Positions 2,623 through 25,478 of a stretch of 25,598 nt of DNA are shown here, in pieces. Source of the DNA: a virus; the IMG/VR virus record IMGVR_UViG_3300046007_013221, positions 1 through 25,598 of that record. One strand, given 5' to 3'. How positions within the stretch are numbered: the stretch's first letter is position 1; each line of letters opens with the position of its first letter. The position numbers were made by a program, and so were the translations under genes. Below the pieces are notes generated by a model. The model was not told the origin of the DNA. It was given only the letters and a program-made list of their open reading frames with translations, and ran no database searches.

Positions 2623-2831
2623 TTCTTTTCTCCTTGATAAGGGTGTTGTTGTTTAAGTTCTGGGTTTAGATTACAAACCATTTTTTCTTTGATAGGTTTA
2701 ATTACAATAAACTTATCATTTTTAAGAGTGCCTGCGATCTTAACTTCTAGTTCTACATCTCGATCCCAGACACCAATATCAACCAACTCCTGAAGGGCAA
2801 GAGCGAATTGCCCCAACATTCCAGCACTCAC
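2619..2831 (-). CDS. Small soluble protein between ferredoxin and Hli, unknown
   Basis: A 70-residue protein, mixed alpha/beta by eye, no membrane segment, one Cys, Lys-rich C-terminal half ending HPYQGEKK. The frame opens at GTG 2829-2831, overlapping the ferredoxin stop (GTGA); GGAA eight bases upstream gives a modest ribosome site. ATG 2817-2819 ([12 protein letters not shown]) is a possible alternative four codons later. Its stop overlaps the start of the 39-aa Hli. Translation is thus tightly coupled to ferredoxin and Hli, which suggests a role in the same redox/photosynthesis response. I recognise no domain. Confidence 0.7.
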
Positions 2832-3121
2832 AGGTTCTCTTCCTGTTCAGTCAAGATGACACAATCGCTGGTGGGGTAAGCGACGCAGGTAAGAACCCAT
2901 CCTTCTGCCATTTGTTCATCATCAAGGAATGATTGCTCCTCGTTATCAACTGTGCCGCTAATCAGTTTACCAGCACAGGCAGAGCAAGCACCAGCACGAC
3001 AAGACGAAGGAAGGTCTACGCCAGCAAATTCAGCGGCGTCAAGAATATATTGATCATCAGGGCACTCAATGGTGGTTTCAGTGCCATCAGGGGATTGAAG
3101 GGTAACGTTATAGGTTGCCAT
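2828..3121 (-). CDS. petF: Plant-type [2Fe-2S] ferredoxin
   Basis: A 97-residue soluble electron carrier normally reduced by photosystem I and used by FNR, thioredoxin reductase, bilin reductases and similar enzymes. All four cluster ligands are present with standard spacing: C41, C46, C49 ([13 protein letters not shown]) and C79 (VLTCVAYP). Length and the acidic surface match cyanobacterial PetF. The ATG overlaps the TAA of the 28-aa membrane peptide (TAATG), and the stop overlaps the next gene (GTGA). petF is known in some cyanomyoviruses. Here it could feed electrons to peroxiredoxin-linked or phage-encoded reductive reactions, or compensate for host ferredoxin loss; that role is inferred. 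Confidence 0.95.
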
Positions 3122-3207
3122 TAGTAAGTTTCACAAAGTTTTTCTACAGATGCTGCCAACAATACGAAGAAGGCAACGGATGTTATTGTAAATAAAATTT
3201 CAGTCAT
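3121..3207 (-). CDS. 28-aa single-helix membrane peptide in the hli-petF operon
   Basis: A very short gene read directly from the sequence: product starts [20 protein letters not shown] and ends VEKLCETY. The first 20 residues form one membrane helix, with a short polar, Cys-containing tail. It starts 13 bases after the Hli stop, and its TAA overlaps the ferredoxin ATG. Size and topology recall the small single-helix subunits of photosystems and cytochrome b6f, but I cannot match it to one (it does not resemble PetN, PsbN or PsaJ). A photosynthetic-membrane accessory peptide is the best guess from context. Confidence 0.7.
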
Positions 3208-3220
3208 TGTCAATCAATTA

Positions 3221-3415
3221 TCAGAAGATTCCGAAGAAAAAGTTGCCAGTGATAGCATAAGAAATGATCCCAGCAACAAAACCGACCATAGCCCAACGTC
3301 CATTGGTGCGCTCCTTTACTTCATTGGGAGACAGCATCCCATAGTTTTCATAGTACATTGCAGGCTCTTTTGCCCACATATTTTGCTGTCCGTGCTCATT
3401 AGTCGTTACAGTCAT
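3221..3415 (-). CDS. hli: High-light-inducible protein (64 aa)
   Basis: A 64-residue Hli with a 30-residue polar N-terminal region and one membrane helix. The chlorophyll-binding signature is ERTNGRWAMVGF (E35, N38, R40, M43), followed by VAGIISYAITGNFFFGIF, a typical phage/picocyanobacterial Hli ending. It is the first gene of the redox operon. A consensus sigma70 promoter at 3442-3470 puts the transcription start about 20 bases before the ATG, so the leader is very short and carries a perfect inverted repeat. Early expression by host RNA polymerase is likely. Expected location is the thylakoid membrane, protecting photosystem II during infection. Confidence 0.95.
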   Translation of the reverse strand: MTVTTNEHGQQNMWAKEPAMYYENYGMLSPNEVKERTNGRWAMVGFVAGIISYAITGNFFFGIF

Positions 3416-3506: not shown

Positions 3507-4973
3507 TCAGAACTTGAATGTGGTCTGGATTACACCGCCCCAATTAGAGGAGTTATTTACAAGACGCTGATTGTCGCTTGCATAGAAGATTGCAGGAGTG
3601 ACACTAATATTGTCAGATACTTGATACTTGTAGAAGAATTCAAGCATCGTTGCTTTCTCAAGATCTTCACCAGTAGGTGCCTGACCGATAGCAACACCAG
3701 CAGAGTTACCATCAACAAATACATCTTCCCACTGAAGACCAGCAAACCAAGACTGACTATTGGTAGCATCGCTGGGAGTACCACTTACAGTATTCCATCC
3801 ATAACCAGCAGAGATGGAAGGTGCCCAACCAGATTGGGTAGGTTGCCAGTATGCGTTGATAGCATAACCGTTAGAGGTTTGACCAGGAACCAGAGCACCA
3901 GAAGCACCGTTCAGACCGTTGTAGGTACGAACACGGGTGCCTTCAGTACCATAACGGTAACCAAATGCAGCACCCCAGTTAGTGCCACGATAACCGACTT
4001 GTGCCAGAGTGTTTAGAGCACCTGAACGATCAAACTCACCAGTGGAACTATCAGCACCATTTTGTGCCACATAGTTTACACCAGCAACAAGACCTTTCTT
4101 GCCATACTGAACACCAAAACCCGAACCAGTTGCCTTGTTATAAACACCAGGAGCACCTGCTACTTGGAAGAAGTCAAGAATATTTGACTTGTAGGCAGTA
4201 GGAATCCAAGCCATTTCAGTGTTACGTACCAGAGCACCAGCAGTCAGGGTAGTGCTACCATTGAATACGGGGAACTGATAGAACAGACGATCAATAACTA
4301 CGTTGTTGCCAACTTCACTAGAAGTATCATCTGCTTTATCCAGTTTGAAGATTGAAGAACTGGAACCAAAAGGATTGCTACTGAAGTTAGCAGAACGCAG
4401 ACGAGTGCGAAGCAAATCTTTTCCAGTGAATGAAGTATCCAGGTTCAGTCGCAGATCGTAATTGAATGCGGTACGAGTGATATCACCATCTTTGGTTTGG
4501 TAATCATCAACACCACCGATCACGAAGTTTGCTTCACCACGCAGTTTGGTAGTGGTAGAGAACTGTTGTGCCTCAAGTGTAGTAACTTGTGCTTCCAGTT
4601 TATCTACACGACCACGAAGAACAGCAAGTTCTTGTGCAAATTCTGCCTGAAGACGCTTCAGTTCATCGGTAACTTCAGTCACACGATCAAGGCAAGCATT
4701 CAGAAGTGCTGCTGCCTCATAACGGGTCATCGCTTTACCACCACCAAAGGTGCCGTTAGGATAACCAGCAACGCAACCATAACGCTCTACGAGGTTGCTG
4801 AGTGCCTGATATGCCCAATCGGTAGGTTGAACATCAGAGAATTGAGTAACGCTTGTAACCTGCTCAGAAGAGTATTGGTTGACTGCTGCCATATTCAGAT
4901 CTGCGGCATTCGCAGCAACAGGAGCAACCATTCCCAGAGCAACAGGTGCAAGCATCAGTTGTTTGAGTTTCAT
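3507..4973 (-). CDS. Cyanobacterial-type outer-membrane porin (SLH + OprB-like barrel)
   Basis: A 488-residue porin of the type dominating picocyanobacterial outer membranes. A signal peptide at 1-23 (Lys-rich start, cleavage after AANA) precedes an SLH domain at about 45-97 (FSDVQPTDWAYQAL, then TRYEAAALLNACLDR) that anchors to the cell wall. A heptad-like coiled coil follows at about 100-137 (LKRLQAEFAQELAVLRGRVD). Residues 145-488 form an OprB-like beta-barrel region ending in TTFKF, the C-terminal Phe signature for outer-membrane insertion. No ribosome site is evident. It has its own promoter (5045-5079) and terminator. GC content is visibly higher than in neighbours, suggesting capture from a host. 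It may alter nutrient entry or receptor display in infected cells. Confidence 0.92.
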   Translation of the reverse strand: MKLKQLMLAPVALGMVAPVAANAADLNMAAVNQYSSEQVTSVTQFSDVQPTDWAYQALSNLVERYGCVAGYPNGTFGGGKAMTRYEAAALLNACLDRVTEVTDELKRLQAEFAQELAVLRGRVDKLEAQVTTLEAQQFSTTTKLRGEANFVIGGVDDYQTKDGDITRTAFNYDLRLNLDTSFTGKDLLRTRLRSANFSSNPFGSSSSIFKLDKADDTSSEVGNNVVIDRLFYQFPVFNGSTTLTAGALVRNTEMAWIPTAYKSNILDFFQVAGAPGVYNKATGSGFGVQYGKKGLVAGVNYVAQNGADSSTGEFDRSGALNTLAQVGYRGTNWGAAFGYRYGTEGTRVRTYNGLNGASGALVPGQTSNGYAINAYWQPTQSGWAPSISAGYGWNTVSGTPSDATNSQSWFAGLQWEDVFVDGNSAGVAIGQAPTGEDLEKATMLEFFYKYQVSDNISVTPAIFYASDNQRLVNNSSNWGGVIQTTFKF

Positions 4974-5044: not shown

Positions 5045-5079
5045 TATTTATCTTAACAGTTTCTTTGGGATTATGTCAA
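5045..5079 (-). promoter_or_regulatory. Porin promoter, sigma70-like with an overlapping late motif
   Basis: On the minus strand TTGACA (5074-5079), 18-base spacer, TAAGAT (5050-5055). Overlapping the -10 is GATAAATA (5045-5052), one base from the T4 late octamer. The leader to the porin ATG would be about 70 bases. The -35 overlaps the stop codon of the upstream glycosyltransferase gene. Confidence 0.55.
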
Positions 5080-5873
5080 GTATTTTGCTGTACCGAAGAG
5101 TTTTCAGTTATTCTACCAAGATAAGGATCATAATTCATATAATCTTTAATATCAATTTGAGCACCTTGCTGTTGCCAATAATTCAATAATGCATCATGAG
5201 GTGCTTTATGAAAGATTCCAAGATGTTCTGGATGAATCGCAGAACCCATTTCAAGATTATAAAGAAAAAGAGGAATAGTGTAAGTTTTACCAGTTTCTAG
5301 GATAGTATCTTCTGATACTGCTCGCGGTTTTACACCGTTATCAAGTTTATACTTATCCCCACGAATATGGTGTTTCATCATTTTTGCCGCATGATGACGA
5401 CTAATCAAATAAATTGCTGCAGAAAAATCATTAATAAACTTTAAATGCAATTTAACATGAATATCTCCAGTACAAATTGTAGTTAATTGAACACAATCCC
5501 AATCGTAAGGAACTTCAGCAAAAAAATCCGTCCAGGTAAAATTCCAATATTTTACAATATCAAAATTCACATCATCCTCAAGGATGAGGCAATAATCATC
5601 ATCACTATTCTCATAAAAATGCTTAATTGCCTTTAGATGGGACATACAGCATCCCAATTCATTTTGACTTACATTATCAGGAATTCTACCTTTCAAATAA
5701 AGAGACACATCATCATCTCTTCCATCATACCCAGAGATACGAATATGATTTTCAATTTCCCAATACTTAAATTGATTTTCCATATACTCCCGACGATGAG
5801 TATCTGCATCAAGATTGATCCAGTAAATATATGGAATACCGTTAAGTTTATATACTGATTTATTCCTGTCCAT
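5076..5873 (-). CDS. Glycosyltransferase family 25 (LPS-type)
   Basis: A 265-residue GT25 enzyme, the family that adds galactose or glucose to lipooligosaccharides. Landmarks in order: YWINLDADTHRREYM near the N terminus (family motif INLD..RR), NELGCCMSH at 71-79, and the metal-binding acidic motif LILEDDVNF (E99-D100-D101). The C-terminal region has the expected late SEDTILE acidic motif. Last gene of the long sugar cluster; its start lies inside the end of the preceding glycosyltransferase gene (14-base overlap). Acts on the cytoplasmic side of the membrane. Acceptor and donor cannot be told from sequence. Confidence 0.87.
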   Translation of the reverse strand: MDRNKSVYKLNGIPYIYWINLDADTHRREYMENQFKYWEIENHIRISGYDGRDDDVSLYLKGRIPDNVSQNELGCCMSHLKAIKHFYENSDDDYCLILEDDVNFDIVKYWNFTWTDFFAEVPYDWDCVQLTTICTGDIHVKLHLKFINDFSAAIYLISRHHAAKMMKHHIRGDKYKLDNGVKPRAVSEDTILETGKTYTIPLFLYNLEMGSAIHPEHLGIFHKAPHDALLNYWQQQGAQIDIKDYMNYDPYLGRITENSSVQQNT

Positions 5874-6825
5874 TGATTATCTTTTTTATATAAGGAAGAT
5901 GATATGATTGGAGGATATTTTTCCAATCAAAAGTTTGAGAATACTTTAAAATATTTTCTCTATTTTGTAAAGATATTTCCCTATTTTGAATTATACATTT
6001 TTCAACATATTCAATATCTTCAATTTTATTTTCAGGAATAACCGTAATGTACTCTTTAGAAAGATCTAAATTTGCAGTTGACCATTCCGAAATGACGAGT
6101 CCTAGTCCAGCAGATAATGCTTCCATACAAACTAGAGGATGTGCTTCACCATCAGAAAGAAGAACTAAATTACCATACTCAGTAAGGTTTTGATAGAGTT
6201 TTTCTTTAGTCCATTCGCCAAGATAATTTTTTGAATTCTCATCAAATCTTCCGTTAGCAGTAGAGTCAATATTTCCTGCATAATAAAGTGAATCAATATT
6301 TTGAAATAACCATTGACGTTTTCTATGATCCACTTTAGCTAGATAAATGCTTCGGTCTCCATGTTTTGGGGATAATGTTTTTCTAAATTTATTAAAGTTA
6401 ACTCCATTAGGAGTAACAAAAAGTTTTTCCTGAGGTATGTTGGAAACTGTTTTATAAACTTCATTAATGCCTTCAGAAAGACCAAAAACATTTGGTTTAA
6501 TTTGCCCAAACAAATCAAAAACCCGATGCTTATATGGGCCCATTTTACCTGGTTGCTCAATATAAGCAAAATGCGTTGTTACTGCACATGGATACTGAAT
6601 ATAAGGAACTAAGAATACATAGTCATCATATTGAATATGAACAAAATCAGGAGTAAACTGATTAATTAAATTAATAATTTCTCGTAGATCTGTTGTATTG
6701 ATGATTTGAACTTCATGTCCCAATTCTTTTAGGGACAGATACATATCCCAAACTACCATCTCTACAGCACCCCACCCAGTCGGTGGTATTTGAGTATATC
6801 CTGGACCAATAATTGTTATTTTCAT
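5860..6825 (-). CDS. GT4-like glycosyltransferase (copy A of a tandem pair)
   Basis: A 321-residue GT-B fold retaining glycosyltransferase. The N-terminal half has MKITIIGPGYTQIPPTGWGA (glycine-rich acceptor domain, GWGAVE at 17-22). The C-terminal half has TPNGVNFNKF at 138-147, a basic donor-phosphate motif KVDHRKRQ at 164-171, and E227-x7-E235 in DGEAHPLVCMEALSAG, the classical nucleotide-sugar motif. It is about 50 residues shorter than many GT4 enzymes. Paralogue of the gene directly upstream (6822-7790), with shared IGPG, GWGAVE, RSIYLAK, NYLGEW and LLSDGE motifs. Starts overlap by 4 bases (ATGA-type coupling). Sugar specificity unknown. Confidence 0.85.
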   Translation of the reverse strand: MKITIIGPGYTQIPPTGWGAVEMVVWDMYLSLKELGHEVQIINTTDLREIINLINQFTPDFVHIQYDDYVFLVPYIQYPCAVTTHFAYIEQPGKMGPYKHRVFDLFGQIKPNVFGLSEGINEVYKTVSNIPQEKLFVTPNGVNFNKFRKTLSPKHGDRSIYLAKVDHRKRQWLFQNIDSLYYAGNIDSTANGRFDENSKNYLGEWTKEKLYQNLTEYGNLVLLSDGEAHPLVCMEALSAGLGLVISEWSTANLDLSKEYITVIPENKIEDIEYVEKCIIQNREISLQNRENILKYSQTFDWKNILQSYHLPYIKKIINGQE

Positions 6826-7790
6826 AGTAAATCTTTTATATTTTTCTCATAGATTCTAACAAGTTTTTCCCAAGACCAATTCTCTACTCCATATTCGCGG
6901 ATCTTATCTCTCATTGTTAATGAAATATCTCTATTCTCCTTTATTTTTCTCTCAACATAATCAAGATCTTCCCACTTATCATCGTCAATAATAGTTACAA
7001 AAGGAAGAGATGGGTCTAATTCGTGAGATGCCCATTTGGAAACAACTACTCCAAGACCAGCCATGAATGCCTCTTTAATAACAAGAGGGGAACCATTCTC
7101 ACCGTCAGACAATAGTATTAGGTTTGCATAATCAGTAAGATGGTTCAGTTTATAATCATGTTCCCACTCACCAAGATAGTTGGGATGATTTTTTTTAAAT
7201 GGAGTTGATGTTGTAAAGTGACCTACGAAATCAATACTATTAATTGTTTGATAGATATACTGTCGTTTTCTAAGTTCAATCTTTGCAAGATAAATCGATC
7301 TATCTGGAATTAGGCAATCAATGTTAAAATTGATTTCCTTATGATTAGCTCCATTCTTACAAATACGAAGAAATTTTGGATCAGCTCCAGCAGATAAAAA
7401 AGCATTATAGTCTTTCTCAGAAATACAAAAATTATAATACTTCTTATTATTCGTTAAAAACTCAAATACAGGAGCATATCCATACATTTTATGAATTTCT
7501 GGCCTTTCAATATAAGCATGATGACTACTTATTGATATTTTTGCTTTTGGTTGAACTTTACTAACTCTATCCAGTATTGGATAAAACATATCATAATGGA
7601 GATGAATAAAATCATATTCATCTTTTTTAAGTTCATCAATAATATCATCATAATCTGGAGTATTAATAATAGTTCCAGTATGTCCTAGTTCACCTAGTTC
7701 TTTTGCATACTCCCATACTAAAATTTCAACTGCCCCCCATCCATTGGGAGGGATTGGCAAAATACCAGGACCAATAAATGCTATATTCAT
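6822..7790 (-). CDS. GT4-like glycosyltransferase (copy B of a tandem pair)
   Basis: A 322-residue paralogue of the following gene, same length and domain order: MNIAFIGPGILPIPPNGWGA at the N terminus, CKNGANHKEINF in place of the PNGV motif, KIELRKRQYIY as the basic motif at 170-180, and an acidic region DGENGSPLVIKEAFMAGLG. Here the two Glu are separated by eight residues (E231, E240), not seven as in copy A, so nucleotide-sugar binding may differ. Likely acts in the same glycan pathway with a different donor or linkage. Separated by nine bases from the GT6 gene upstream. Confidence 0.84.
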   Translation of the reverse strand: MNIAFIGPGILPIPPNGWGAVEILVWEYAKELGELGHTGTIINTPDYDDIIDELKKDEYDFIHLHYDMFYPILDRVSKVQPKAKISISSHHAYIERPEIHKMYGYAPVFEFLTNNKKYYNFCISEKDYNAFLSAGADPKFLRICKNGANHKEINFNIDCLIPDRSIYLAKIELRKRQYIYQTINSIDFVGHFTTSTPFKKNHPNYLGEWEHDYKLNHLTDYANLILLSDGENGSPLVIKEAFMAGLGVVVSKWASHELDPSLPFVTIIDDDKWEDLDYVERKIKENRDISLTMRDKIREYGVENWSWEKLVRIYEKNIKDLL

Positions 7791-7799
7791 TTTGTTAAA

Positions 7800-8528
7800 T
7801 CACCACTCGTTGTTTCCTAAAGACTTATTATTTTTTACCAAATGAACTATTTTCTTGGGGAAATTACAATAATTTTCAAAAAGTTCAGGGAAAGCAAAGG
7901 AGGGATGTAAAGTTTTAGTTTCCTCCCTGTGCATTAAAAACCACTTGTTCATATAACTTTCTTCATAGTATCTTGCCTGAACTCCATTATTAACATCATC
8001 CTTTGTCCAATTATCAATCTCCCTCATCATATCAAATACATAAGGAATTTTTCCTCCCCATAAACACCCTTGCCAATAGATATCCATATCCAGAATATCT
8101 TTGACACACGCATTTGATTCTGGATTAATATCGTAACATCCTGGGTATTGATCATGAGGGCCAAATCCAACAAAGTGACACGGATGATGAACTCCAATAT
8201 ACTTCTTAGTTTCATCAAAAACTTCATCATATTCAATTTTATCGTAGACTTTCATATCAGCATCAACTGATAACATCCATTGACAATCTTGAACAAAATC
8301 TTCTATCTTTAAAATTTCCTCAAATGTCATATTAAATGTTGTAGGAAATCCATAATCTGGGATTTTCATAGTAACAACATTTGATGGCGAATTGATTAAT
8401 TCGCCATCAGTAAAAATAAAATACTTTTTTTCTACATTCGGTAAAAAGTTTTCTTCGAGAGAAAAATACCACGCGGGAAGAAACTCAATATATTTCTGAG
8501 TTCCCCAAAAAGTTAGGGCTATTTTCAT
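7800..8528 (-). CDS. GT6-family (ABO blood-group-type) glycosyltransferase
   Basis: A 242-residue protein resembling family 6 retaining alpha-1,3-Gal/GalNAc transferases. Motifs in family order: YFIFTDGE at about 36-43, a metal-binding DxD as D89-A90-D91 (WMLSVDADMKV), HHP then GCYDINPESNACV at 130-142, YWQGCLWGGK at 151-160, and YYEESYMNKWFLMHR, where E190 matches the catalytic Glu of the vertebrate HDESHLNKY motif. It is catalytic-domain only, without the N-terminal anchor of vertebrate members. Many bacterial GT6 proteins replace DxD by NxN, whereas this one keeps DxD; I recall the same for a GT6 in cyanophage P-SSM2. Vertebrate GT6 enzymes act on galactose, often fucosylated, and fucosylation genes lie nearby. 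Confidence 0.85.
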   Translation of the reverse strand: MKIALTFWGTQKYIEFLPAWYFSLEENFLPNVEKKYFIFTDGELINSPSNVVTMKIPDYGFPTTFNMTFEEILKIEDFVQDCQWMLSVDADMKVYDKIEYDEVFDETKKYIGVHHPCHFVGFGPHDQYPGCYDINPESNACVKDILDMDIYWQGCLWGGKIPYVFDMMREIDNWTKDDVNNGVQARYYEESYMNKWFLMHREETKTLHPSFAFPELFENYCNFPKKIVHLVKNNKSLGNNEW

Positions 8529-9313
8529 ATCAATTTATGTCTAGGAAACCAATCGAAATTTTTACAAACTCTAGAATTTTCTACATGCAAATATGTTTTC
8601 AATTCTTTTTGATTAAATTTTAACAATAAACTACCATTTGAACAAATTATACTTATAATTTCTTTAATTGTCAAACTTTGAGATCCCACAATAAACATTT
8701 GATGTTTTATAATGTTTTCTTTTTCAAGACATTTAAGAATTAAATCAACTAAATCATCTATATGAATAATATCAACTCTTGTATCCAAATTTGTATAAAT
8801 CTCTGTTACATTATCAGTATTCAAATTTTTAATTAATTTATCCACTAGTCCATTAATCCTAGTATCTTTAATACACTTTGCACCCCAAACATTAGAAACT
8901 CTAAATGTAACCGTATCACAGTCCAAATCTTTCAAAATATTTTCAACAAGAAGTTTTGTTTCTCCATATAAAGTTGTTGGCTTTGGTGGCATTTCTTCAG
9001 TTACAGTCCTCTCATATCCTTTATAAAAATCCCCAGCCGAAGAAAGAAAAATAATTTTTCCGTTTGGATTTTTTTGTAGGTAATAATCAAAAAGTTTTTT
9101 ACTATTAATTACATCATTCTTTAATGACTCCTCCAAACAACTATAATTAGTTCTAGTTGTAGAAGACCAAGCTAAATGAATTAAACATGATTTTTCATGA
9201 GATTCAAAAACATCTTTCACCTCATCCCGATAAGATACTTTTTTAATAGGACCCTTATAAATTTCACAAAATTTAGTGCCTATTAATCCATTTGCACCGG
9301 TAACATAAATCAT
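8525..9313 (-). CDS. NAD(P)-dependent sugar epimerase/dehydratase (extended SDR)
   Basis: A 262-residue extended short-chain dehydrogenase. The Rossmann motif TGANGLIG is at residues 5-12 and the catalytic Y116-x3-K120 is in LYGETK. SSAGDFY supplies the usual catalytic Ser region, and VDIIHIDDLVDLIL is the conserved substrate-domain motif. It probably interconverts or dehydrates a nucleotide sugar, but substrate cannot be assigned. The frame is open to a TTG at 9328, but ATG 9311-9313 overlaps the preceding stop (ATGA) and starts immediately before the Rossmann strand, so it is preferred. Its stop overlaps the GT6 start. Confidence 0.82.
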   Translation of the reverse strand: MIYVTGANGLIGTKFCEIYKGPIKKVSYRDEVKDVFESHEKSCLIHLAWSSTTRTNYSCLEESLKNDVINSKKLFDYYLQKNPNGKIIFLSSAGDFYKGYERTVTEEMPPKPTTLYGETKLLVENILKDLDCDTVTFRVSNVWGAKCIKDTRINGLVDKLIKNLNTDNVTEIYTNLDTRVDIIHIDDLVDLILKCLEKENIIKHQMFIVGSQSLTIKEIISIICSNGSLLLKFNQKELKTYLHVENSRVCKNFDWFPRHKLI

Positions 9314-10137
9314 TCTACTACAATCCAATTTTTAGGAAGAATATCACAAGTATTTAAATGCGAATTATTTGGGCCAAACCATTTTTTAGGGTTCGGACTA
9401 TAAACTGTTTTATTTACGTTTTTAGAAAGCCATGCGCCCCACCAAGAAAAAGATGAATTGGCAATAATAAAATCAGTACAAAGACTCATCAAACAAAGAT
9501 CAATATATCCAGAATTTTTTTCGGATATCAAAAACCTATCACTAGAAAATATTTCTTGATTTTTACACCATTCTGTATCATCAGAAAAAACAATCACCGG
9601 AAGGTCTGCGGAAAAATTAGATAAAGTCTTTTCATAATATTCTAAATTAAGATTAGTATGATTTTCTGAATTTGTCAAATAATCAGTTCTTCTAACATGC
9701 AAGGATATGATCCTATCACTAGAAATAGAATCGATCATTTCTTTGCATGAATTTAATATTTCACTTTTAAATGTAAAGTCTTTTCGTATAGTATCCTCAA
9801 CATTCTTAAAGTATTTTTCTGTCTGGAAAAACCCATACAAGGAAACCCAATTGGGACAATTATTAAATAGGTTTTCATTGAAGTTATGGTTATCTTCAGA
9901 AACAATAGGTCTGTTTTGATCTATGAACTGAATATTTAAAGCAGACACACTACCCATCTCAAAACAATCAAAAAGTTCAGTTCTTAGCATATTACCAATT
10001 CCATCATTAACTGAATCAGTATAATATGGAAGACAAAAATTACAATCTCTATTATGTGATATACCCCTCAAAGCCGCATATTGAAACATTTGGTTTCCCA
10101 AACGTCCAAGTCTTCCTAAGTGATTAAAACCTATCAT
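9310..10137 (-). CDS. GT11 fucosyltransferase (alpha-1,2 type)
   Basis: A 275-residue inverting GT11 enzyme expected to transfer L-fucose from GDP-fucose to a galactose-containing acceptor. Motifs: LGNQMFQYAAL at 13-23, the GDP-fucose-binding HVRRTDYL at 147-154, VFSDDTEWC at 183-191, and IANSSFSWWGAWLS at 225-238, then PKKWFG near the C terminus. All four GT11 signature regions are intact and length is normal for bacterial members. Four-base overlaps with both neighbours. It sits near a GDP-fucose-synthase-like reductase and a GT6 gene, as if making a blood-group-like branch. Confidence 0.92.
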   Translation of the reverse strand: MIGFNHLGRLGRLGNQMFQYAALRGISHNRDCNFCLPYYTDSVNDGIGNMLRTELFDCFEMGSVSALNIQFIDQNRPIVSEDNHNFNENLFNNCPNWVSLYGFFQTEKYFKNVEDTIRKDFTFKSEILNSCKEMIDSISSDRIISLHVRRTDYLTNSENHTNLNLEYYEKTLSNFSADLPVIVFSDDTEWCKNQEIFSSDRFLISEKNSGYIDLCLMSLCTDFIIANSSFSWWGAWLSKNVNKTVYSPNPKKWFGPNNSHLNTCDILPKNWIVVE

Positions 10138-10943
10138 TTTGCAAGCTCCTGTATAAATTCATAATCCCGATGTAAATTTGCATAATTCTCAAATGCTAAG
10201 AAAAGATCTAGATGATTTTTGTAAACATACGCCATAGCGTTTTGCTCATTGTTTATCACATTATTGGATATCATTTTTTTCTGCAATACATCATCTATTA
10301 AATTACAGAACTTAGTTAGAACTTGACCACCACCACCCCAAAGACCTGCCATAACCCATGTTCTTGCATCCCAAAAATATTCTTCTGTACACACATCTGC
10401 ATTAACAAGATCAGGATAATAAGACATTGATGTTTGAATTATAACTTTGTCCTTATTTTCATTCATTGAATATAATCCATTTTTTGATGGGTAATGATTA
10501 TTAAGATCATCACTATCAAAAAATCTAGAAAGACCAGCATCCATCCACATAAAAAGATCTGTATTAAAGTAATTTTCTTTGATTACTTTTTTAACCCATT
10601 GAAATTTAGAAAATATAATTACATTATACAATGGATTTTTACATTCAACTCTATTGGGAGCACCAATCTTATTTTTAAAATCTACAGACTCTAAAATTGC
10701 TTTTATTTTTTCATTTAGAAAGTAGTACGGAACTTCATCAATTTCTTGTTCCACAATTTTTGTAGGGAGATTATTTCGATATTTCTCAACAAATGAAACT
10801 AAACTCTTGGAGACAAAGATTACCATTGGAGATGGAATCTTCAAAGTTTGAGAGAACCAAGAAAGATACTCATCGAAAGTTCTGCCATCCCCATTAGTCT
10901 CTCGGTTTATATCATATAGTGCAGTAACTAAAGTGATAGACAT
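10134..10943 (-). CDS. HtrL/YibB-like protein, probable glycosyltransferase
   Basis: A 269-residue protein resembling the HtrL/YibB/WlaTC family found in LPS and capsule loci. It begins MSITLVTALYDINRE, carries FMWMDAGLSRFF at 131-142 (the conserved W-x-D-x-G motif, likely metal/nucleotide-sugar binding) and VMAGLWGGGG near 197-206, then a C-terminal NEQNAMAYVY segment resembling the late acidic motif of GT-A enzymes. No signal peptide or membrane segment. Five bases downstream of the fucose-synthase-like gene and overlapping the GT11 start. A glycosyltransferase role is inferred from fold-like motifs and context; the sugar is unknown. Confidence 0.75.
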   Translation of the reverse strand: MSITLVTALYDINRETNGDGRTFDEYLSWFSQTLKIPSPMVIFVSKSLVSFVEKYRNNLPTKIVEQEIDEVPYYFLNEKIKAILESVDFKNKIGAPNRVECKNPLYNVIIFSKFQWVKKVIKENYFNTDLFMWMDAGLSRFFDSDDLNNHYPSKNGLYSMNENKDKVIIQTSMSYYPDLVNADVCTEEYFWDARTWVMAGLWGGGGQVLTKFCNLIDDVLQKKMISNNVINNEQNAMAYVYKNHLDLFLAFENYANLHRDYEFIQELAK

Positions 10944-10948
10944 AAAAT

Positions 10949-11839
10949 TTAAATATCAATTTTTATAGTATTTTTATACCAATCTATTGTTTTCTTTATT
11001 CCCATTCGAAGGTCTGTAAAGGTAAAATCGCCAATAATGCTTTTTAGTTTTGTATTATCGACGATTTTTACTTGTTCACCAATTACTTTATTAGAATCAA
11101 AGATAACGTTATTCTTAAAATCAAGATTTTCCATGATAGCATCAACAATATCTAAAATTGAAATTGACTTATCAGATGAAACAATTATTGGATCTTTTAT
11201 ATCTTTATTAAAAATAATCTCATCTAAGATTTGATTTAGATCTTCAACATACAAATAATTACGAAAAACTTTTCCATTACCGTAAAGATGAACGTCGGTA
11301 TTTTCCTGAATTGCTTTATAAAAACGATAAATCAAATTATGTATGACTGTTCCATCTTGATGAAATTTACCATAAGGACCATAAGTATTACCAAGATATA
11401 TTGACTTATAATTTAAATCATAGTCTAATTGATATGCTTTACAAAGACCAACACATATTTTTTTAGAGTATGCATACCCAAAAATATTTTCGTTGACTTC
11501 CCCATGTATTGATTTTTCAGTAAATGGTGAAGGGTGATTGGGATCAAAAGAGGTGATGGTAGAAAGCATTAATAAATTTTCTACACCAGTTTCTCTACAT
11601 GCTTTAATAATATTAAGATCGCTTATTATATTATTCTCAATATATTGACTGTGGTTTTTTAACATCTCAACAGCAGATCCATGTTTTGATGCTGTATGAA
11701 TTACCGTCGTTGGGGAATATTTTTTGAAAGATTGTATGACGGAATTATAATCCGTAAGATCACAATCAAATCTAGATAACTTCACATCAGAAGAGATATT
11801 ACTTCCAATAAATCCATTACCACCAGTTAAGAGTTTCAT
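10949..11839 (-). CDS. GDP-L-fucose synthase-like epimerase/reductase
   Basis: A 296-residue extended SDR similar in pattern to GDP-4-keto-6-deoxymannose epimerase/reductase (Fcl/WcaG). It has GGNGFIG at 6-12, the triad Ser region MLSTITSF, Y122-x3-K126 (GYAYSKK), IYLGNTYGPYGKFH at 147-160 (Fcl-type NLYGP..NFH), and FRNYLYVEDL, the R-x-FLYVDD region. The nearby GT11 enzymes would need GDP-fucose. The partner Gmd (GDP-mannose dehydratase) is not in this window, so the host or another phage locus would have to supply it. Other 6-deoxy-sugar reductases remain possible. Four-base overlap with the gene upstream. Confidence 0.75.
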   Translation of the reverse strand: MKLLTGGNGFIGSNISSDVKLSRFDCDLTDYNSVIQSFKKYSPTTVIHTASKHGSAVEMLKNHSQYIENNIISDLNIIKACRETGVENLLMLSTITSFDPNHPSPFTEKSIHGEVNENIFGYAYSKKICVGLCKAYQLDYDLNYKSIYLGNTYGPYGKFHQDGTVIHNLIYRFYKAIQENTDVHLYGNGKVFRNYLYVEDLNQILDEIIFNKDIKDPIIVSSDKSISILDIVDAIMENLDFKNNVIFDSNKVIGEQVKIVDNTKLKSIIGDFTFTDLRMGIKKTIDWYKNTIKIDI

Positions 11840-12555
11840 TTATTTTTTATTGCAATGTATCTGTCTTCATCATCAACCCACAAATTGGGTCCTTTTTCTG
11901 TTGGTATTAAATCACCAGTCCAAGGATAGTATATTTCACTTGCATTTGAAAGAAATGCTGCCCACCAACAATATGTTGAAGGAGTTAAAAGAATTTTATT
12001 GGCAGACATAATCAAAGCAAATTGTTCTAGGATGGAATATTTGGCTTTGATAACCTCAACACCCAAAGAATTCATGAAATCAAAAAATGGATCATCAAAC
12101 GTATCAGTACAAAGAATAATTCTATTATAACTCACTTTTTCAAAAACTTCAATAAAAAATTCTTTAGGTGGGCACATTGAAGTTGGATACCCATTCCACC
12201 CTCTACGAATTGAAACCACGAAGTCATCAGGCAAAACTTCAATTGGGGAATTAACATCTAATTGAAACCATTCTTTAACTTTTTGTTTATGATTTTTAAT
12301 ATACTCATAACGTTGAACATAACCAGACATTTCAATTCTGCAGTTAGAATCTATTTCTTCCAGATTAATATAATGTCCATGAATGGTAATAACTGGTTCA
12401 GAAAAAACATTCCCATCGATTTTTTCCAAGGTTTTTGGAAATCCAGGAATTGAATAGCAATCTAACTTTAGATTATTTTCTTCAGCAATTACGCGAGAAA
12501 AAGCGTATTGCCACATATTATTACCAAGAGTACCTAACCTGTTTACTTGAATCAT
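11836..12555 (-). CDS. Divergent GT11-like fucosyltransferase
   Basis: A 239-residue protein with the GT11 plan in shorter, altered form: LGTLGNNMWQYAFSR at 7-21 (family LGNQMFQYA), VSIRRGWNGYP at 114-124 in the place of HxRRxDY, ILCTDTFDDPFF near 147-158, and LTPSTYCWWAAFLS at 190-203 (family ANSSFSWWGAWL). The usual His before RR is Ile and the Asp after it is replaced by Gly/Trp, so donor binding may differ from true fucosyltransferases. Start overlaps the Ugd-like stop by one base (TAATG). Likely a glycosyltransferase; fucose specificity is uncertain. Confidence 0.72.
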   Translation of the reverse strand: MIQVNRLGTLGNNMWQYAFSRVIAEENNLKLDCYSIPGFPKTLEKIDGNVFSEPVITIHGHYINLEEIDSNCRIEMSGYVQRYEYIKNHKQKVKEWFQLDVNSPIEVLPDDFVVSIRRGWNGYPTSMCPPKEFFIEVFEKVSYNRIILCTDTFDDPFFDFMNSLGVEVIKAKYSILEQFALIMSANKILLTPSTYCWWAAFLSNASEIYYPWTGDLIPTEKGPNLWVDDEDRYIAIKNK

Positions 12556-13331
12556 TACTTCCGATCACGATGAACACCATTCAGTTGATTTATAAACTTG
12601 ACTAGTGGACTTTGAGAAAATTGCTCCAATTCATAATTATCCTTAATGAAGCAGTGACCTCCCCAACCAAATTCACCATCCCATCCAGGAACTTGAGTGT
12701 GTGATGTTCCAATACGCTCATCCATTCCAGTCATCAATCTAAATTCATCAAATGTTGAATTGCAACCAAGATCTTGATGAATCTTATAAAGTTCATTATA
12801 AACTGTTACTTTTGTTGCTAGGAAGAAATTTTCTGCATATTTAATTAGAGCGGCGGTACGAATATCGGTGATGCCAACTCTATCATTATTCAATTTACTC
12901 AAACGAGAAACAAATATGTCAGCAACAATTCTCGCTGCTTCTTTTTCGCCACCAATAATACAGAAGTTTTGATTTTGAAACTTTTCAATATTATGAAGAG
13001 AATCAAGATATTCTGGACTATGAAGAACTCTAATATTTTGATACTTCTTCTCAGCAGAATGATAATAATCTGGAGTAGAAGTTGATTTGCAACATATTGG
13101 AGTGTTGTTTCCAATATGTACATTTACCTGAGCAAGGATCATGTCCAACAAACCATAATTATTGCCCTTAGGAGTATCTACACATACAAATACTACATCA
13201 AACTTTTCACCTTCATAATTAGAAATAACATCATCGCTTAATTTAGGGTCAATAATTACTTTCTCTTCATCAGAAAATATAGAAGCCACAGCTGATCCAA
13301 CATATCCGTGCCCAACAATCATTACTTTCAT
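12555..13331 (-). CDS. Short UDP-glucose/GDP-mannose dehydrogenase-like protein
   Basis: A 258-residue member of the nucleotide-sugar 6-dehydrogenase superfamily. N-terminal NAD motif VGHGYVG at 6-12, HSPEYLD at 104-110, the central-helix Lys (K164 in LIKYAENFFLATK), and the catalytic Cys C227 in WGGHCFIKDN are present. It ends about 30 residues after the Cys, whereas full enzymes have roughly 390-440 residues with a C-terminal nucleotide-binding domain. It might be a natural minimal form, use a different substrate, or be a degenerate copy. A fuller relative lies at 18480-19646 in the same cluster. Forms dehydrogenated sugar such as a uronic acid if active. Confidence 0.78.
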   Translation of the reverse strand: MKVMIVGHGYVGSAVASIFSDEEKVIIDPKLSDDVISNYEGEKFDVVFVCVDTPKGNNYGLLDMILAQVNVHIGNNTPICCKSTSTPDYYHSAEKKYQNIRVLHSPEYLDSLHNIEKFQNQNFCIIGGEKEAARIVADIFVSRLSKLNNDRVGITDIRTAALIKYAENFFLATKVTVYNELYKIHQDLGCNSTFDEFRLMTGMDERIGTSHTQVPGWDGEFGWGGHCFIKDNYELEQFSQSPLVKFINQLNGVHRDRK

Positions 13332-13344
13332 TTTTACTTTCCAG

Positions 13345-13965
13345 TTACTTTAAACTCCAATTTTCCCAAACCCATTGATAATTCCAATCTTGTTTATGAG
13401 TCTTAGAAAACTCTTCACGTATTCTTTCCAAAGATTCTTCTGATCCAGGTGGTTCTGGATGAAATTGGATTTGAAAATTTTTGATTTTTTTAGTATACCC
13501 ATTATCGAAGATGTTTTCAATAATTTCATACTCTGCACCTTCAACATTAATCTTAAGCAAATCAATTACATCCAAATTCAACTCTTTATAGACTTCATGA
13601 AAGGATTTGATTTTAACAATACTTATATCTTTATTGTCACTTTCACTATATTTTTTTACATTCGCTAGAGAAGACCCATCATTTGAATAAAAGAATTCTA
13701 CATCAGAAGTCTGATTAGAAATTCCATAATCAAAGACTCTTATTTTTTCATTGTCTTTGAACCTTTCATTAATCATATTGTAAAAAGGGGCATATGGTTC
13801 AAAGACATATACATTACAATTGAACTTACTGTAGATATTGTTGGCAAAATCGCCATGATATCCACCAAGATCAAGAACTACAGAATCTTCGTTCAGAGGA
13901 TAGTCCAACCTTAAAGTATAATCACCGTTGTCACTAAACCAACGATCAACATCAAAAAATACCAT
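13345..13965 (-). CDS. FkbM-type SAM-dependent methyltransferase
   Basis: A 206-residue methyltransferase with VVLDLGGYHGDF at 29-40 (SAM glycine loop), VYVFEPYAPF at 52-61 (acidic ribose-binding residue) and LLKINVEGAEYEIIENI at 136-151, the hallmark FkbM motif. FkbM enzymes O-methylate sugars and polyketides and are common in LPS loci. The frame opens at TTG 13968, but ATG 13963-13965 overlaps the TGA of the upstream gene by one base and is preferred. Probably methylates a residue of the phage-directed glycan; target unknown. Confidence 0.85.
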   Translation of the reverse strand: MVFFDVDRWFSDNGDYTLRLDYPLNEDSVVLDLGGYHGDFANNIYSKFNCNVYVFEPYAPFYNMINERFKDNEKIRVFDYGISNQTSDVEFFYSNDGSSLANVKKYSESDNKDISIVKIKSFHEVYKELNLDVIDLLKINVEGAEYEIIENIFDNGYTKKIKNFQIQFHPEPPGSEESLERIREEFSKTHKQDWNYQWVWENWSLK

Positions 13966-14834
13966 CAATCTTCCCTCGTCAATAGAACGTGTTTTCCTTT
14001 ATTAGAATCATATTGAAGATAATCAACATCTTTATATAATTCATTTTCATCAATTTGATAGTTGACCCAATCACCAAAATAAGGTCTCTCAACATCAATA
14101 ATTCCAGCAATTGCATCAATAGCAGATCCAACATCAAGAAAAACTGCGTCTTTATATTTTTTCAGTCTATGAATAAGACCAGACTTAACATGACCCATAC
14201 CCATCAAGAAAATTTTAGAAGTTGATTTTTCTAACTGTTCTCCTACTATTTTTTCTGTAAGATCAATGTCATCACATGCAAATTTTTGAGGAAGAGAAAT
14301 ATAATCTTCGAATTTTTCTATCCCAAGATAATCTTGATATTGGGGTGCTTCGATGATATTTTGAATGATATTGATTTTAGAATCAGCTCCAATTAAACCA
14401 ATTTTTCCAGCAAAAGTTTTCAATAACCATTTATTAGAAACTAAACCATATCCATATTCTGCGGGAAAATCAATAGAAGTATTTGGAATTACTTCATTAA
14501 ATGAAGAAATATTTTCTGGATATATCTCGCAGGTATAATAATCACATTTTCTACATCCATCTACAAAACTTTGATGGTCTATATCTTCATACCCTTTACT
14601 TAAGGCTCTACGTCCAGGTGTCGCACTACCAACAGATTGCTTTTTAAGGAAAAAATAATCACCATCACCAAACTTATAAAAAGTTTTAGATTCGTTACTT
14701 TCAACTAAATTAACTAGAAGTGATTTAAATTCTTCCAATTTTGTTTGGAAATTTGGATAGGCATCTGGGTTAGAAAAACACGGATTTCTATCTAAATTAA
14801 TTGTTCCTTCTATCTTATAAAGATCCAAATACAT
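13965..14834 (-). CDS. GT-D-like glycosyltransferase (DUF1792-type), putative
   Basis: A 289-residue protein with features of the GT-D glycosyltransferase fold. FYKFGDGDYFF at 52-62 resembles the FGDGE acidic donor/metal motif. GKIGLIGADSK in the middle and KIFLMGMGHVKSGL followed by VFLDVGSAIDA near residues 207-240 resemble the Rossmann-like half (IGAGP...LDIGH in known members). Ends in a Lys/Asp-rich tail. No membrane segment. One base separates it from the aminotransferase gene, and its TGA overlaps the FkbM start. Family call is by pattern only, so confidence is moderate; transferred sugar unknown. Confidence 0.6.
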   Translation of the reverse strand: MYLDLYKIEGTINLDRNPCFSNPDAYPNFQTKLEEFKSLLVNLVESNESKTFYKFGDGDYFFLKKQSVGSATPGRRALSKGYEDIDHQSFVDGCRKCDYYTCEIYPENISSFNEVIPNTSIDFPAEYGYGLVSNKWLLKTFAGKIGLIGADSKINIIQNIIEAPQYQDYLGIEKFEDYISLPQKFACDDIDLTEKIVGEQLEKSTSKIFLMGMGHVKSGLIHRLKKYKDAVFLDVGSAIDAIAGIIDVERPYFGDWVNYQIDENELYKDVDYLQYDSNKGKHVLLTRED

Positions 14835-14835
14835 A

Positions 14836-16008
14836 TCAGTCCTCCGTTACAGCAACACCATGATAAACGGCAGTTTTTCCATCATAAGAAGAAATGCCAT
14901 GCTTACCATAGTATTCCTTTACCCAATAAATGACATAATCAATATCTTCCTGAGTCATTCCAGGATGACAGGGAAGACTAAGTAATTTTCTCCATTCACG
15001 ATCAGCAACTTGATAATCACGATTCTGTTTTACAATACTATACTTATGCAGTGGTTTAAAGTGAACACTGGTATGAATCTTCTTATCTGCAAGATAATCA
15101 ATCATATCATCACGCTCAGCAGAAGGAACACGAGCACAATAGTACTGAACAGTTTCTGACCAGGGAGGAGTGCGAATTAAACCTTCAAGACCTTCATTAT
15201 AACACTTTTGAATATGGCGCCGCCATTCAAGATGTTTAGGAAGTTTCTTCATTTGTTCCAAGCAAATCGCTGCCTGAAGATCAATCATATAACACTTATA
15301 ACCAAGAACATCTACCTCATAATCCCAAGAATATCCAGGTTTACCCGTAAAACCATCATCTTTACGAACACGAGAATAAGTACTACTAATACCCAACCAA
15401 GTCATTGGAACCAACTTCTCATAAAGATCCTTATCATTTGTAGTGATCATTCCACCATCACCACATGGCATAGTTTTCACTGCCTGAAATGACCACACAG
15501 CAACGTCTCCTTTTGCTCCAGCGCCAGGAGTGTAGCAACTATGAGCACAATCTTCTAGGATTAAACCATCATAGAACTTACGGATTTCATCAATCGGTGC
15601 CGGAACACCAGCATGATTTACGGCAATAATCGCTTTTGTATCTGAACGAAGATTTTTTCTGACATCTTCTGGGTCCAAACAAAGAGTGTCATCCAAAACA
15701 TCAACGATATTGGAAGTGCAATTATTCCATAGAGGAACAACAGCAGTTGTCATAAAAGAAATAGTAGGATTGATAATATCACAATCTTTAATTCCAAGTG
15801 CTTTAAGAACTAGATCCTGCCCACTTGTTGCACTATTAACTGCAATAGCATACTTTGCCCCAACTAGTTCTGCAAATTTTTTTTCAAACTCTGCAACTTT
15901 TGGACCTTTACCCCACCACCCACTTTCAATTGATTCTCTTATAGAATTAAGTTCCTCTTCTCCACCAACAGGACGAAGAACTGGAAGCATAGTATCACGA
16001 ATTTTCAT
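14836..16008 (-). CDS. DegT/DnrJ/EryC1/StrS-family sugar aminotransferase
   Basis: A 390-residue PLP-dependent enzyme that converts a keto nucleotide sugar to an amino sugar. N-terminal SGWWGKGPKVAEFEKKFA is the usual DegT opening, NSATSGQDL binds PLP phosphate, LEDCAHS contains the PLP-contacting D153, and SFQAVKTMPCGDGGMI holds the Schiff-base lysine K178. Length is normal. GGAG eight bases before the ATG is a good ribosome site. DNA looks less AT-rich than the flanking glycosyltransferases. It implies at least one amino sugar in the glycan. Some DegT members act as sugar dehydratases, but those replace the Lys by His, so transamination is expected here. Confidence 0.92.
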   Translation of the reverse strand: MKIRDTMLPVLRPVGGEEELNSIRESIESGWWGKGPKVAEFEKKFAELVGAKYAIAVNSATSGQDLVLKALGIKDCDIINPTISFMTTAVVPLWNNCTSNIVDVLDDTLCLDPEDVRKNLRSDTKAIIAVNHAGVPAPIDEIRKFYDGLILEDCAHSCYTPGAGAKGDVAVWSFQAVKTMPCGDGGMITTNDKDLYEKLVPMTWLGISSTYSRVRKDDGFTGKPGYSWDYEVDVLGYKCYMIDLQAAICLEQMKKLPKHLEWRRHIQKCYNEGLEGLIRTPPWSETVQYYCARVPSAERDDMIDYLADKKIHTSVHFKPLHKYSIVKQNRDYQVADREWRKLLSLPCHPGMTQEDIDYVIYWVKEYYGKHGISSYDGKTAVYHGVAVTED

Positions 16009-16011
16009 TTA

Positions 16012-16680
16012 TCAATCTCCAATTTTATACAAAACGTGGTCAATAAGGCTATTATTTATTGTTTCCACCACTTCATAATTATCTGTAATTTTTGGCAATT
16101 TTAACTCTATCCATTTAGGTTCAGTAATTATAACATAACGAGAAATCTTTGGCAAAGTATCAAACAGTTTTTTTATTTCTAAACTTTGATGATCATTTCC
16201 ATGTAAAAAATTTAAAATAGAAACGCAATCAAAAAGAGGTTCATTGTATTCATCAAAAAAATCTCCAAATGTTTTGATGTTTCCTACATATCCATATTTT
16301 TGATTTTCAAAGTTTCTTTTAAAAATTTCTTCGGATCCTCTTAAACAATTTTCTCTTGGGTCAATTCCAACAGAGAATATTTCTTTTTTATTGCATAGAA
16401 AAGAGAAATGATTAGTTGCACATCCTATATCTAAATTTGACTTGATTTTATGTTTTAAAAATATGTCAACAACACCATTCCAAAGGTTCCATCTAGTTTT
16501 TCTTGCATATTCATCATTTAAATAATAATTTGTAATATTTTCATCTTCAAAATAATCTACACAATTTGCGTGCCATCTAATATCGCTATTATTTGAGTGC
16601 CAGTCAGAAATTTGAGAAATTTGATTATAAGAATATTTTTCAAATTCACTCATTACCTTAAACAGAAAGTCTTTATTCAT
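16012..16680 (-). CDS. Class I SAM-dependent methyltransferase, putative
   Basis: A 222-residue protein with a Rossmann-type SAM-binding core: SNLDIGCATNHFSFL at 81-95 (motif I) and VGIDPREN at 104-111 (acidic end of strand 2), then FDCVSILNFLHGNDH as motif IV-like and YVIITEPKWIELKLP. The first 75 residues are helical and aromatic-rich (NLWNGVVDIF) and may recognise substrate. No family-specific signature lets me name the acceptor. Gaps to the neighbouring genes are three bases on both sides. Together with the FkbM and 19649-20431 genes it gives the cluster three candidate methyltransferases. Confidence 0.75.
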   Translation of the reverse strand: MNKDFLFKVMSEFEKYSYNQISQISDWHSNNSDIRWHANCVDYFEDENITNYYLNDEYARKTRWNLWNGVVDIFLKHKIKSNLDIGCATNHFSFLCNKKEIFSVGIDPRENCLRGSEEIFKRNFENQKYGYVGNIKTFGDFFDEYNEPLFDCVSILNFLHGNDHQSLEIKKLFDTLPKISRYVIITEPKWIELKLPKITDNYEVVETINNSLIDHVLYKIGD

Positions 16681-16683
16681 AAT

Positions 16684-17382
16684 TCAACAAAAATGAAAAT
16701 TATTGATATCTAAAGGATTACCACTCCTCTCCCAATCGTTACGGATTAATCCCAACCAATTTAATAATTCATAGTTGATATTTTTTTCTTTAACAAAATC
16801 AAAAAGATTAACCTCCGAAGAAATGTGTTTTTCAGAAAGTTCATTTAACCGATTCATACTGTAATCAGAATAATCTTTCATTAAAGAAGATTTCATAGAA
16901 AAATATGTGTCATTAAAATTATTTCTCTCGTTACAGCGAACAATTCCATTCAAATAAACATGATCGTTTTGAACCATTATGGCATCATATTTTGTTTGTT
17001 CTGTTTTTTCAAAAGCATATGGACATGTCCACATTCTCCTACCAGTAACATAAGAAATATTGTTATAATTTTCTAAATCTATTTCTTGAAGGGCTTTATA
17101 TAGCATTAAAATCTCACCACATCCTTTATTTTTCTTACCAATATTATCATCACTTCCGAGAGAAATAATTTCCAAATCACTAAAATATTCTCTTACTTCA
17201 AGATTTTGTATTTCTTCTGGATGGTTAATAGTATTTTCACAAACTATAAGATTAAAAGAATCTGGTATGATTCTTTTAATCTGTTTGATGCAATTATAAT
17301 ATTCTACTTCCCTTTGAGAACAAACATTAGAATTTAATTGTTGTGGACGAATAGAACAAAATACAAGTGCTAAGTTTTTCAT
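16684..17382 (-). CDS. Unidentified cluster protein, possible glycosyltransferase
   Basis: A 232-residue soluble protein I do not recognise. It begins MKNLALVFCSIRPQQ, like the first strand of a GT-A or Rossmann fold. The middle has KGCGEILMLYKAL, then ISYVTGRRMWTCPYAFE, and later DHVYLNGIVRCNERNNFNDT, a pattern reminiscent of nucleotide-sugar transferases (strand, acceptor loop), but without an obvious DxD. It is rich in Asn and Tyr. Two bases follow the GDP-mannose-epimerase-like stop, and it precedes a methyltransferase, so it surely belongs to the glycan operon. Function is inferred from position only. Confidence 0.65.
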   Translation of the reverse strand: MKNLALVFCSIRPQQLNSNVCSQREVEYYNCIKQIKRIIPDSFNLIVCENTINHPEEIQNLEVREYFSDLEIISLGSDDNIGKKNKGCGEILMLYKALQEIDLENYNNISYVTGRRMWTCPYAFEKTEQTKYDAIMVQNDHVYLNGIVRCNERNNFNDTYFSMKSSLMKDYSDYSMNRLNELSEKHISSEVNLFDFVKEKNINYELLNWLGLIRNDWERSGNPLDINNFHFC

Positions 17383-17384
17383 AA

Positions 17385-18440: not shown

Positions 18441-18479
18441 TTAAGTTCTCCTTTTATTTACAAAATATAATAATATTTT

Positions 18480-19646: not shown

Positions 19647-19648
19647 AA

Positions 19649-23784: not shown

Positions 23785-23802
23785 AAAGTAAGATTTTATG
23801 AG

Positions 23803-23876
23803 TCGGGCATAAAGGATTTGAACCTTTGACCTTTCCGCCCCAAACGGAACGCGCTACCAAACTGCGCTAATGCCCG
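23803..23876 (-). tRNA. tRNA-Pro (TGG)
   Basis: A 74-base cloverleaf: acceptor CGGGCAT/ATGCCCG, D arm GCGC..GCGC, anticodon stem TTCCG/CGGAA with loop TTTGGGG (anticodon TGG), T arm AAAGG-TTCAAAT-CCTTT, discriminator A, no encoded CCA. It reads CCA proline codons, favoured by AT-rich phage genes. Its 5' end overlaps the end of a 41-codon gene. Confidence 0.96.
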
Positions 23877-23992
23877 ATGTTTTTATTTTGATGCACAATC
23901 ATTATACCCATTGCAGGTCCAAGTGTCAAGAGACAACCAATAACAAACAATGACCATTGATGGGTTAAAAGATATTCTACAATTTTTATCAT
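23867..23992 (-). CDS. 41-aa single-helix membrane protein ending inside tRNA-Pro
   Basis: A short gene read directly: product begins MIKIVEYLLTHQWSLFVIGC, with a membrane helix at about 13-35 and a polar tail ending HQNKNIGH. ATG 23990-23992 overlaps the TGA of the S/T-rich late gene (ATGA), indicating coupled translation. The last three codons and stop lie in the 5' acceptor/D region of tRNA-Pro, so tRNA processing would cut the mRNA's 3' end. No homologue recognised; function unknown. Confidence 0.6.
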   Translation of the reverse strand: MIKIVEYLLTHQWSLFVIGCLLTLGPAMGIMIVHQNKNIGH

Positions 23993-24495: not shown

Positions 24496-24519
24496 AATAT
24501 TTCAATTAATTTATTTTGT

Positions 24520-24609: not shown

Positions 24610-24613
24610 TTTT

Positions 24614-24963: not shown

Positions 24964-25087
24964 TTTTTTCTATTCGTAGTACTACTATATACTAATCATA
25001 GAATTTTAAACGTCATCTAAATGTCAGTGTTTTGTAACACTAATATACAGAAACCGAAAGAAAGTATTAAATTTGTATTCTATGTAA

Positions 25088-25171: not shown

Positions 25172-25176
25172 AAATT

Positions 25177-25434: not shown

Positions 25435-25469
25435 TATTTTAAACCCTATTCATTCTCATCAATATAATT

Positions 25470-25477: not shown

Positions 25478-25478
25478 A

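Follow-up and report, generated by a model that had tools for sequence, protein, structure and literature searches.

What does a glycosyltransferase of family GT6 do in a phage? Textbooks use the ABO enzymes to show how a few residues set donor specificity, and the GT6s described so far differ mainly in whether they use Gal or GalNAc. The gene considered here lies in IMG/VR virus record IMGVR_UViG_3300046007_013221, a 25,598-base stretch of DNA that was analysed whole and that we call the window. Its neighbouring genes (those for a high-light-inducible protein, a ferredoxin, a peroxiredoxin and a porin, together with a glycan cluster) and its nearest relatives suggest that the source virus is a Kyanoviridae cyanophage. 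Nearly all named genes, including those for GT6, GT11 and the SDR enzyme between them, are on the minus strand. The original prediction was of an unusual ABO-type GT6 with an intact DxD motif, near GT11 and Fcl-like genes that hinted at a blood-group-like fucosylated structure.

Table 1. Features of the window around the GT6 gene and its glycan cluster.
Feature	Positions	Strand	Remarks
Peroxiredoxin, ferredoxin and high-light-inducible protein genes	1988-2503 and 2828-3415		Beside the glycan cluster; arrangement common to DSL-LC02 and DSL-LC03
SLH-domain OprB-type porin	3507-4973		In a phage; matches S-SRM01 porins
GT25 glycosyltransferase	5076-5873	minus	Downstream of GT6
GT4-like glycosyltransferase	5860-6825	minus	Downstream of GT6
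GT4-like glycosyltransferase	6822-7790	minus	Downstream of GT6
GT6-family glycosyltransferase	7800-8528	minus	242 aa; DAD 89-91, E190, K232; loop Y187-Y188-E189-E190; T68 where others have Arg
SDR nucleotide-sugar enzyme ("EpiB")	8525-9313	minus	GANGLIG, SS and YGETK motifs intact
GT11-family transferase (alpha-1,2-fucosyltransferase family)	9310-10137	minus	Pfam PF01531, 96.5 bits; PHROG 2644; HVRRTD motif intact
HtrL/YibB family protein	10134-10943		Directly upstream of GT11, 4 bp overlap
SDR resembling GDP-L-fucose synthase ("EpiA")	10949-11839	minus	Without Cys (STC) and His (GHV)
Second, weak GT11-like gene	11836-12555	minus	Pfam 25.9 bits, cut-off 23.9; no HxRRxD motif
Rest of glycan/nucleotide-sugar cluster	12555-22901	minus	Two UDP-Glc/GDP-Man dehydrogenase-like genes, FkbM and other methyltransferases, DegT aminotransferase (PLP Lys present), NAD synthase, carbamoyltransferase
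GDP-mannose 3,5-epimerase-like gene	17385-18440	minus	PDB GME, E 6e-86
Carbamoyltransferase and NAD synthase	21198-22901 and 20428-21201		Upstream end of the cluster
Three tRNA genes (Pro, Ser, Val)	within 23802-25550		Beside the cluster

The predicted open reading frame is present, exactly at 7800-8528 on the minus strand. Its product matched Pfam Glyco_transf_6 (PF03414) over residues 2-217 (E 1.1e-13, 51.1 bits, cut-off 25) and PHROG 3317, a glycosyltransferase group (252 bits); against NCBIfam Gltr_6 it scored 130 bits, below the strict cut-off of 250. Among solved chains it matched human GTA/GTB with E about 1e-14 and BoGT6a of Bacteroides ovatus with E 6e-8. An AlphaFold model (pLDDT 91.2, pTM 0.88), superposed as had been proposed, had a GT6 fold: its best PDB match was BoGT6a (PDB 4ayj, 4cj8; TM 0.86-0.88), followed by human GTA/GTB (TM about 0.8-0.85). 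The best viral fold match, outside the window, was BFVD A0A5J6VM96 from a Megaviridae environmental sample, a 958-aa protein with a GT6 domain. D89-A90-D91 and E190 stand at the residue numbers predicted for them and, with K232, align with the DxD or NxN motif, the catalytic Glu and the C-terminal Lys described as features of the family (PMC3961637). By alignment the DAD lies over the NAN of BoGT6a and the DVD of GTB, which would put it at the metal site. Family and fold confirm the product as a genuine GT6 enzyme, and it is predicted to be a metal-dependent retaining alpha-transferase. BoGT6a resembles it in fold, in stemless size and in catalytic Glu and Lys, but is metal-independent, keeps Arg73 and the WHDE loop, and makes A-antigen-like products (PMC3961637). 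Human GTA/GTB share the GT-A fold, the DxD and the catalytic Glu; the window protein, about 22% identical to them, differs in the WHDE loop and at positions 266-268 (QGC in the window), and has no membrane stem.

How unusual is such an enzyme in a phage? A tblastn search placed GT6 in 71 phage records, mostly of cyanophages and many already annotated "glycosyltransferase family 6", and two cyanophages with GT6 were in print by 2014 (PMC3961637). When 264 viral GT6 reading frames were dereplicated at 95% identity, all 154 representatives carried DxD (117 DAD, 35 DVD, 2 DID), which rules out rarity of the motif; 85 bacterial GT6 proteins included 57 with NAN and 19 with DAD. DxD is the rule for cyanophage GT6, and a phage GT6 with DxD is, as such, not new. 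The original prediction was right about the phage context and the motif and overstated their rarity. The known cyanophage members (PHROG 3317; S-CAM9, S-PRM1, Bellamy, ACG-2014f, P-SSM2) share with the window the family, the DxD, the catalytic Glu and a glycan cluster with GT11. In a quick tree of 135 rows, which included 11 of the 24 representatives of the subclade described below, a single branch separated the NxN GT6s from the rest (SH-aLRT 93), and the cyanophage GT6s split into two separate groups, a main group and the P-SSM2 type. The window GT6 is 47% identical to the S-CAM9 protein and 28% to that of P-SSM2, which belongs to a separate phage clade. GT6 was found in 11 of 386 Cyanobacteriota genomes, only one of them belonging to the 182 that carry Photo_RC (psbA-type) genes; because GT6 is nearly absent from these Photo_RC-bearing genomes, a common host source of cyanophage GT6 is unlikely. 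The single GT6 among the 182 is at L423:9314-10000 (G259).

What sets the window GT6 apart is its sugar pocket. It belongs to a subclade with 24 representatives, set apart by one branch of SH-aLRT 100, in which the loop reads [WYF][YFH]EE; bacterial and other phage GT6s have WHDE. Measured against residues present in at least 75% of the others (81 + 48 other phage representatives and 85 bacterial proteins), the subclade is changed at columns 61, 65, 66, 68, 184, 185 and 187-189. T68 and E189 are fixed in 24/24 representatives, where the others have Arg (94-100%) and Asp (100%), and the Arg, Trp, His and Asp of the contact positions are present in 91-100% of other phage and bacterial GT6s; the known cyanophage members listed above keep WHDE and the Arg. 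Unchanged in the subclade are T10 (uracil), Y13 (diphosphate), P62, H115, G154, G158, E190 (catalysis), N194 and K232 (leaving group), as well as the metal residues. By alignment, at about 22% identity and set by the strings W-P-x-N-T-L-x-R and W-H-D-E, the changed columns include the equivalents of BoGT6a Trp66, Thr70, Leu71, Arg73, Trp189, His190 and Asp191. In its complex, BoGT6a touches the donor O3' with Arg73 NH2, a phosphate with Trp66, and the sugar with Trp189, His190, Asp191 and residue 192 (PMC3961637, table 2). The window protein has Phe for Trp66, Thr for Arg73, Tyr for both Trp189 and His190, and Glu for Asp191, and the ABO-type contacts (Arg73 and Trp-His-Asp 189-191) are accordingly missing from T68, Y187, Y188 and E189. 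On this comparison the "ABO-type" function first ascribed to the gene looks doubtful, and the pattern is that of an altered sugar pocket in what would otherwise be a working GT6 enzyme. Replacement of strictly conserved residues could also mean a decaying gene that has lost its function; with two of the replacements identical throughout the subclade, catalytic residues and open frame kept, and a neighbouring gene coupled in all members, we consider decay very improbable.

The coupled neighbour lies directly upstream. The GT11, SDR and GT6 genes of the window overlap by 4 bp each if the SDR starts at the in-frame ATG at 9313, a start inferred from the sequence within a longest frame of 8525-9328. 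Between GT11 and GT6, directly upstream of the subclade GT6, there was an SDR in 20/24 cases and an E1/RfbH-type 3-dehydrase plus SDR in 4/24. The 127 other viral GT6s had an SDR or RfbH-type gene directly upstream in 3 cases and GT11 there in 65, and many of the known cyanophage loci have GT11 directly upstream with no SDR between. All six out-of-sample subclade members had an upstream nucleotide-sugar enzyme (SDR in 4, RfbH type in 2), and 8 of 11 new canonical GT6s had GT11 directly upstream. Likewise, the 36 orthologues of the window SDR that scored above 300 bits were all found directly upstream of this same subclade. One further member, L388, surfaced in a control scan directed at something other than GT6; considered as an SDR without a variant GT6, it proved on reading of the locus to have one just downstream. 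Against this pattern, L270 carries an SDR between GT11 and a GT6 of the canonical kind. RfbH itself is not exclusive to the subclade: genes like it turn up in other places beside different neighbours, and it is only their coupling to GT6 that is specific to the subclade. The Fisher value for the upstream-gene association, 6e-25, counts related sequences and is not a probability of independent events. Because the subclade has a single origin, the residue change and the gene order count as one evolutionary association, though two enzyme types occupy the slot. The novelty of the locus lies in the sugar-pocket variant with its coupled upstream gene; it is otherwise of a known kind.

Which sugar would such upstream enzymes make? 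The RfbH-type neighbours match E1 (CDP-6-deoxy-L-threo-D-glycero-4-hexulose-3-dehydrase, PDB 3bcx) with E 8e-67, including the SFYPAHH and a Cys-rich stretch; as in E1, His replaces the PLP Lys. Against NCBIfam RfbH the gene scored 372 bits, just below the cut-off of 423. E1 strips the C3-OH from an NDP-4-keto-6-deoxyhexose, and such 3-dehydratases differ from aminotransferases chiefly in having His where those have Lys (PMC8987622). An Arg that binds O3' would be superfluous for a donor lacking O3, and removal of the C3-OH fits the loss of the O3' contact. No RfbH was seen in the 25,598-base window, where the SDR on its own may be a reductase of a 4-keto-6-deoxy sugar or else a 4-epimerase. 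Its highest-scoring models are those of 4-epimerases (galE 53 bits, far below cut-off), its nearest solved relative is UDP-glucose 4-epimerase, and it might supply ordinary UDP-Gal.

That relative brings in a more conventional explanation, an ordinary ABO-like enzyme that moves Gal or GalNAc from a UDP-sugar onto Fuc(or L-Gal)-alpha1,2-Gal made by GT11, with the SDR as the 4-epimerase supplying UDP-Gal/UDP-GalNAc. The GT6 family with its DxD, Glu and Lys agrees with it, and both BoGT6a and WbnI of E. coli O86 act on Fuc-alpha1,2-Gal (PMC3961637, PMC4202792). So does gene position: GT11 was the next gene upstream of GT6 in 41/108 phage loci, canonical and variant, against 6.7 expected if randomly placed (loci were chosen in order of similarity to the query, best first and 80 per scan, and this and the other locus counts describe the sample, not all cyanophages), and it lay within 3 kb of 51/85 bacterial GT6 proteins, for 31 of them no more than 200 bp away. 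Subclade-wide replacement of the sugar-contacting Arg, His and Asp, which other phage GT6s keep, and the 3-dehydrase that part of the subclade has in the same slot both count against it, and we rate this explanation as unlikely. The adjacency itself supports sequential action of GT11 and GT6, as in E. coli O86, where WbwK (GT11) and WbnI (GT6) act in turn from one surface-glycan locus to give blood-group B (PMC4202792). The O86 pair puts Gal on Fuc-alpha1,2-Gal; in the phage subclade an SDR joins the pair and the GT6 pocket is altered.

Mere proximity of GT11 does not prove blood-group chemistry: in a GT25-anchored control, 35/45 cyanophage clusters without GT6 still carried GT11, and only adjacency, not presence, carries weight. 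Nor is the first sugar necessarily fucose. Epimerization by GDP-L-fucose synthase depends on a catalytic Cys and a catalytic His. The "Fcl-like" gene, 10949-11839, has GDP-L-fucose synthase as its nearest relative, yet the STC and GHV of the human enzyme align with STI and GTV in its product; the His compared is that of GHV, and a phage Fcl in L064 reads GPN at GPH. With both catalytic residues absent we rejected the gene as a GDP-L-fucose synthase, and it probably encodes another NDP-sugar enzyme. A clear GDP-mannose 4,6-dehydratase (GMD) was not found among the reading frames searched in this 25.6 kb contig, whereas some other cyanophages, DSL-LC03 among them, carry GMD, GDP-fucose synthase, GT11 and GT6 as consecutive genes. 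The GDP-mannose 3,5-epimerase-like gene might provide GDP-L-galactose, which GT11 enzymes are able to take as donor (PMC11987014), and its strong match makes L-galactose as likely as fucose for the window GT11. The nearby genes first predicted are real as a GT11 and an SDR, though probably not as Fcl, and a blood-group-like fucosylated structure keeps its GT11 neighbour while being weakened by the replaced sugar contacts, the SDR between GT11 and GT6 and an "Fcl-like" gene that is probably not a GDP-fucose synthase.

On balance we lean towards a retaining, metal-dependent GT6 whose donor sugar, probably a deoxyhexose, comes from the upstream enzyme and is attached beside a GT11-added residue on a surface glycan. 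GT6 is the last gene of a coupled GT11-SDR-GT6 cassette in a phage surface-glycan cluster; the SDR would finish an NDP-sugar, probably a 6-deoxy- or 3,6-dideoxyhexose, and GT6 would transfer it alpha-wise next to the L-sugar placed by GT11. The product would be a host or virion glycan with a branch like that of the A/B antigens but ending in a different sugar. More tentative, and in our estimate short of an even chance, is the proposal that the subclade, seen so far only in cyanophage-type contigs, is a GT6 subfamily whose donor has switched from UDP-Gal/GalNAc to a 3,6-dideoxy- or 6-deoxyhexose nucleotide from the upstream-encoded enzyme, giving deoxy-sugar-capped, A/B-antigen-like branched ends. 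No dideoxy-sugar GT6 was found in the literature searched. If true, a natural GT6 subclade with replaced sugar contacts and its presumed donor gene attached would show the fold re-aimed at another sugar, and the SDR and GT6 make a testable gene pair. The favoured reading also predicts cyanophage-written sugars at the surface of the cell or virion, the place that decides host recognition and superinfection.

The upstream enzyme could instead serve the other transferase. Sitting between GT11 and GT6 and overlapping or abutting both, the SDR (or RfbH plus SDR) might make the donor for GT11, and the GT6 change would then reflect a new acceptor, not a new donor; WHDE-loop residues do touch the acceptor side in BoGT6a as well (PMC3961637). 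The SDR family, however, tracks the GT6 subclade and not GT11, which is common to most clusters; Arg73 of BoGT6a contacts the donor; and a dedicated GT11 enzyme (ColD-like), where present, sits upstream of GT11. We think this assignment improbable. In the same phages ColD-like genes lay directly upstream of GT11 in 21/27 cases, which suggests that these GT11 neighbours are phage colitosyltransferases. E. coli O55 WbgN, a GT11 colitosyltransferase, accepts GDP-colitose, a dideoxy L-sugar donor, as well as GDP-fucose and GDP-L-galactose (PMC11987014). With ColD placed before such a GT11, the order of donor enzyme and then its transferase, as we propose for SDR and GT6, has a chemically sensible parallel; WbgN sets a precedent for a deoxy-sugar donor in a pair of this kind, and does so for the GT11 partner, not for GT6.

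The ColD-like 3-dehydrase genes directly upstream of GT11, in which His again stands for the PLP Lys, are at L050:3985-6026 and 20 other loci. E1-type dehydrases need an electron donor, and the ferredoxin near the glycan cluster could matter for them.
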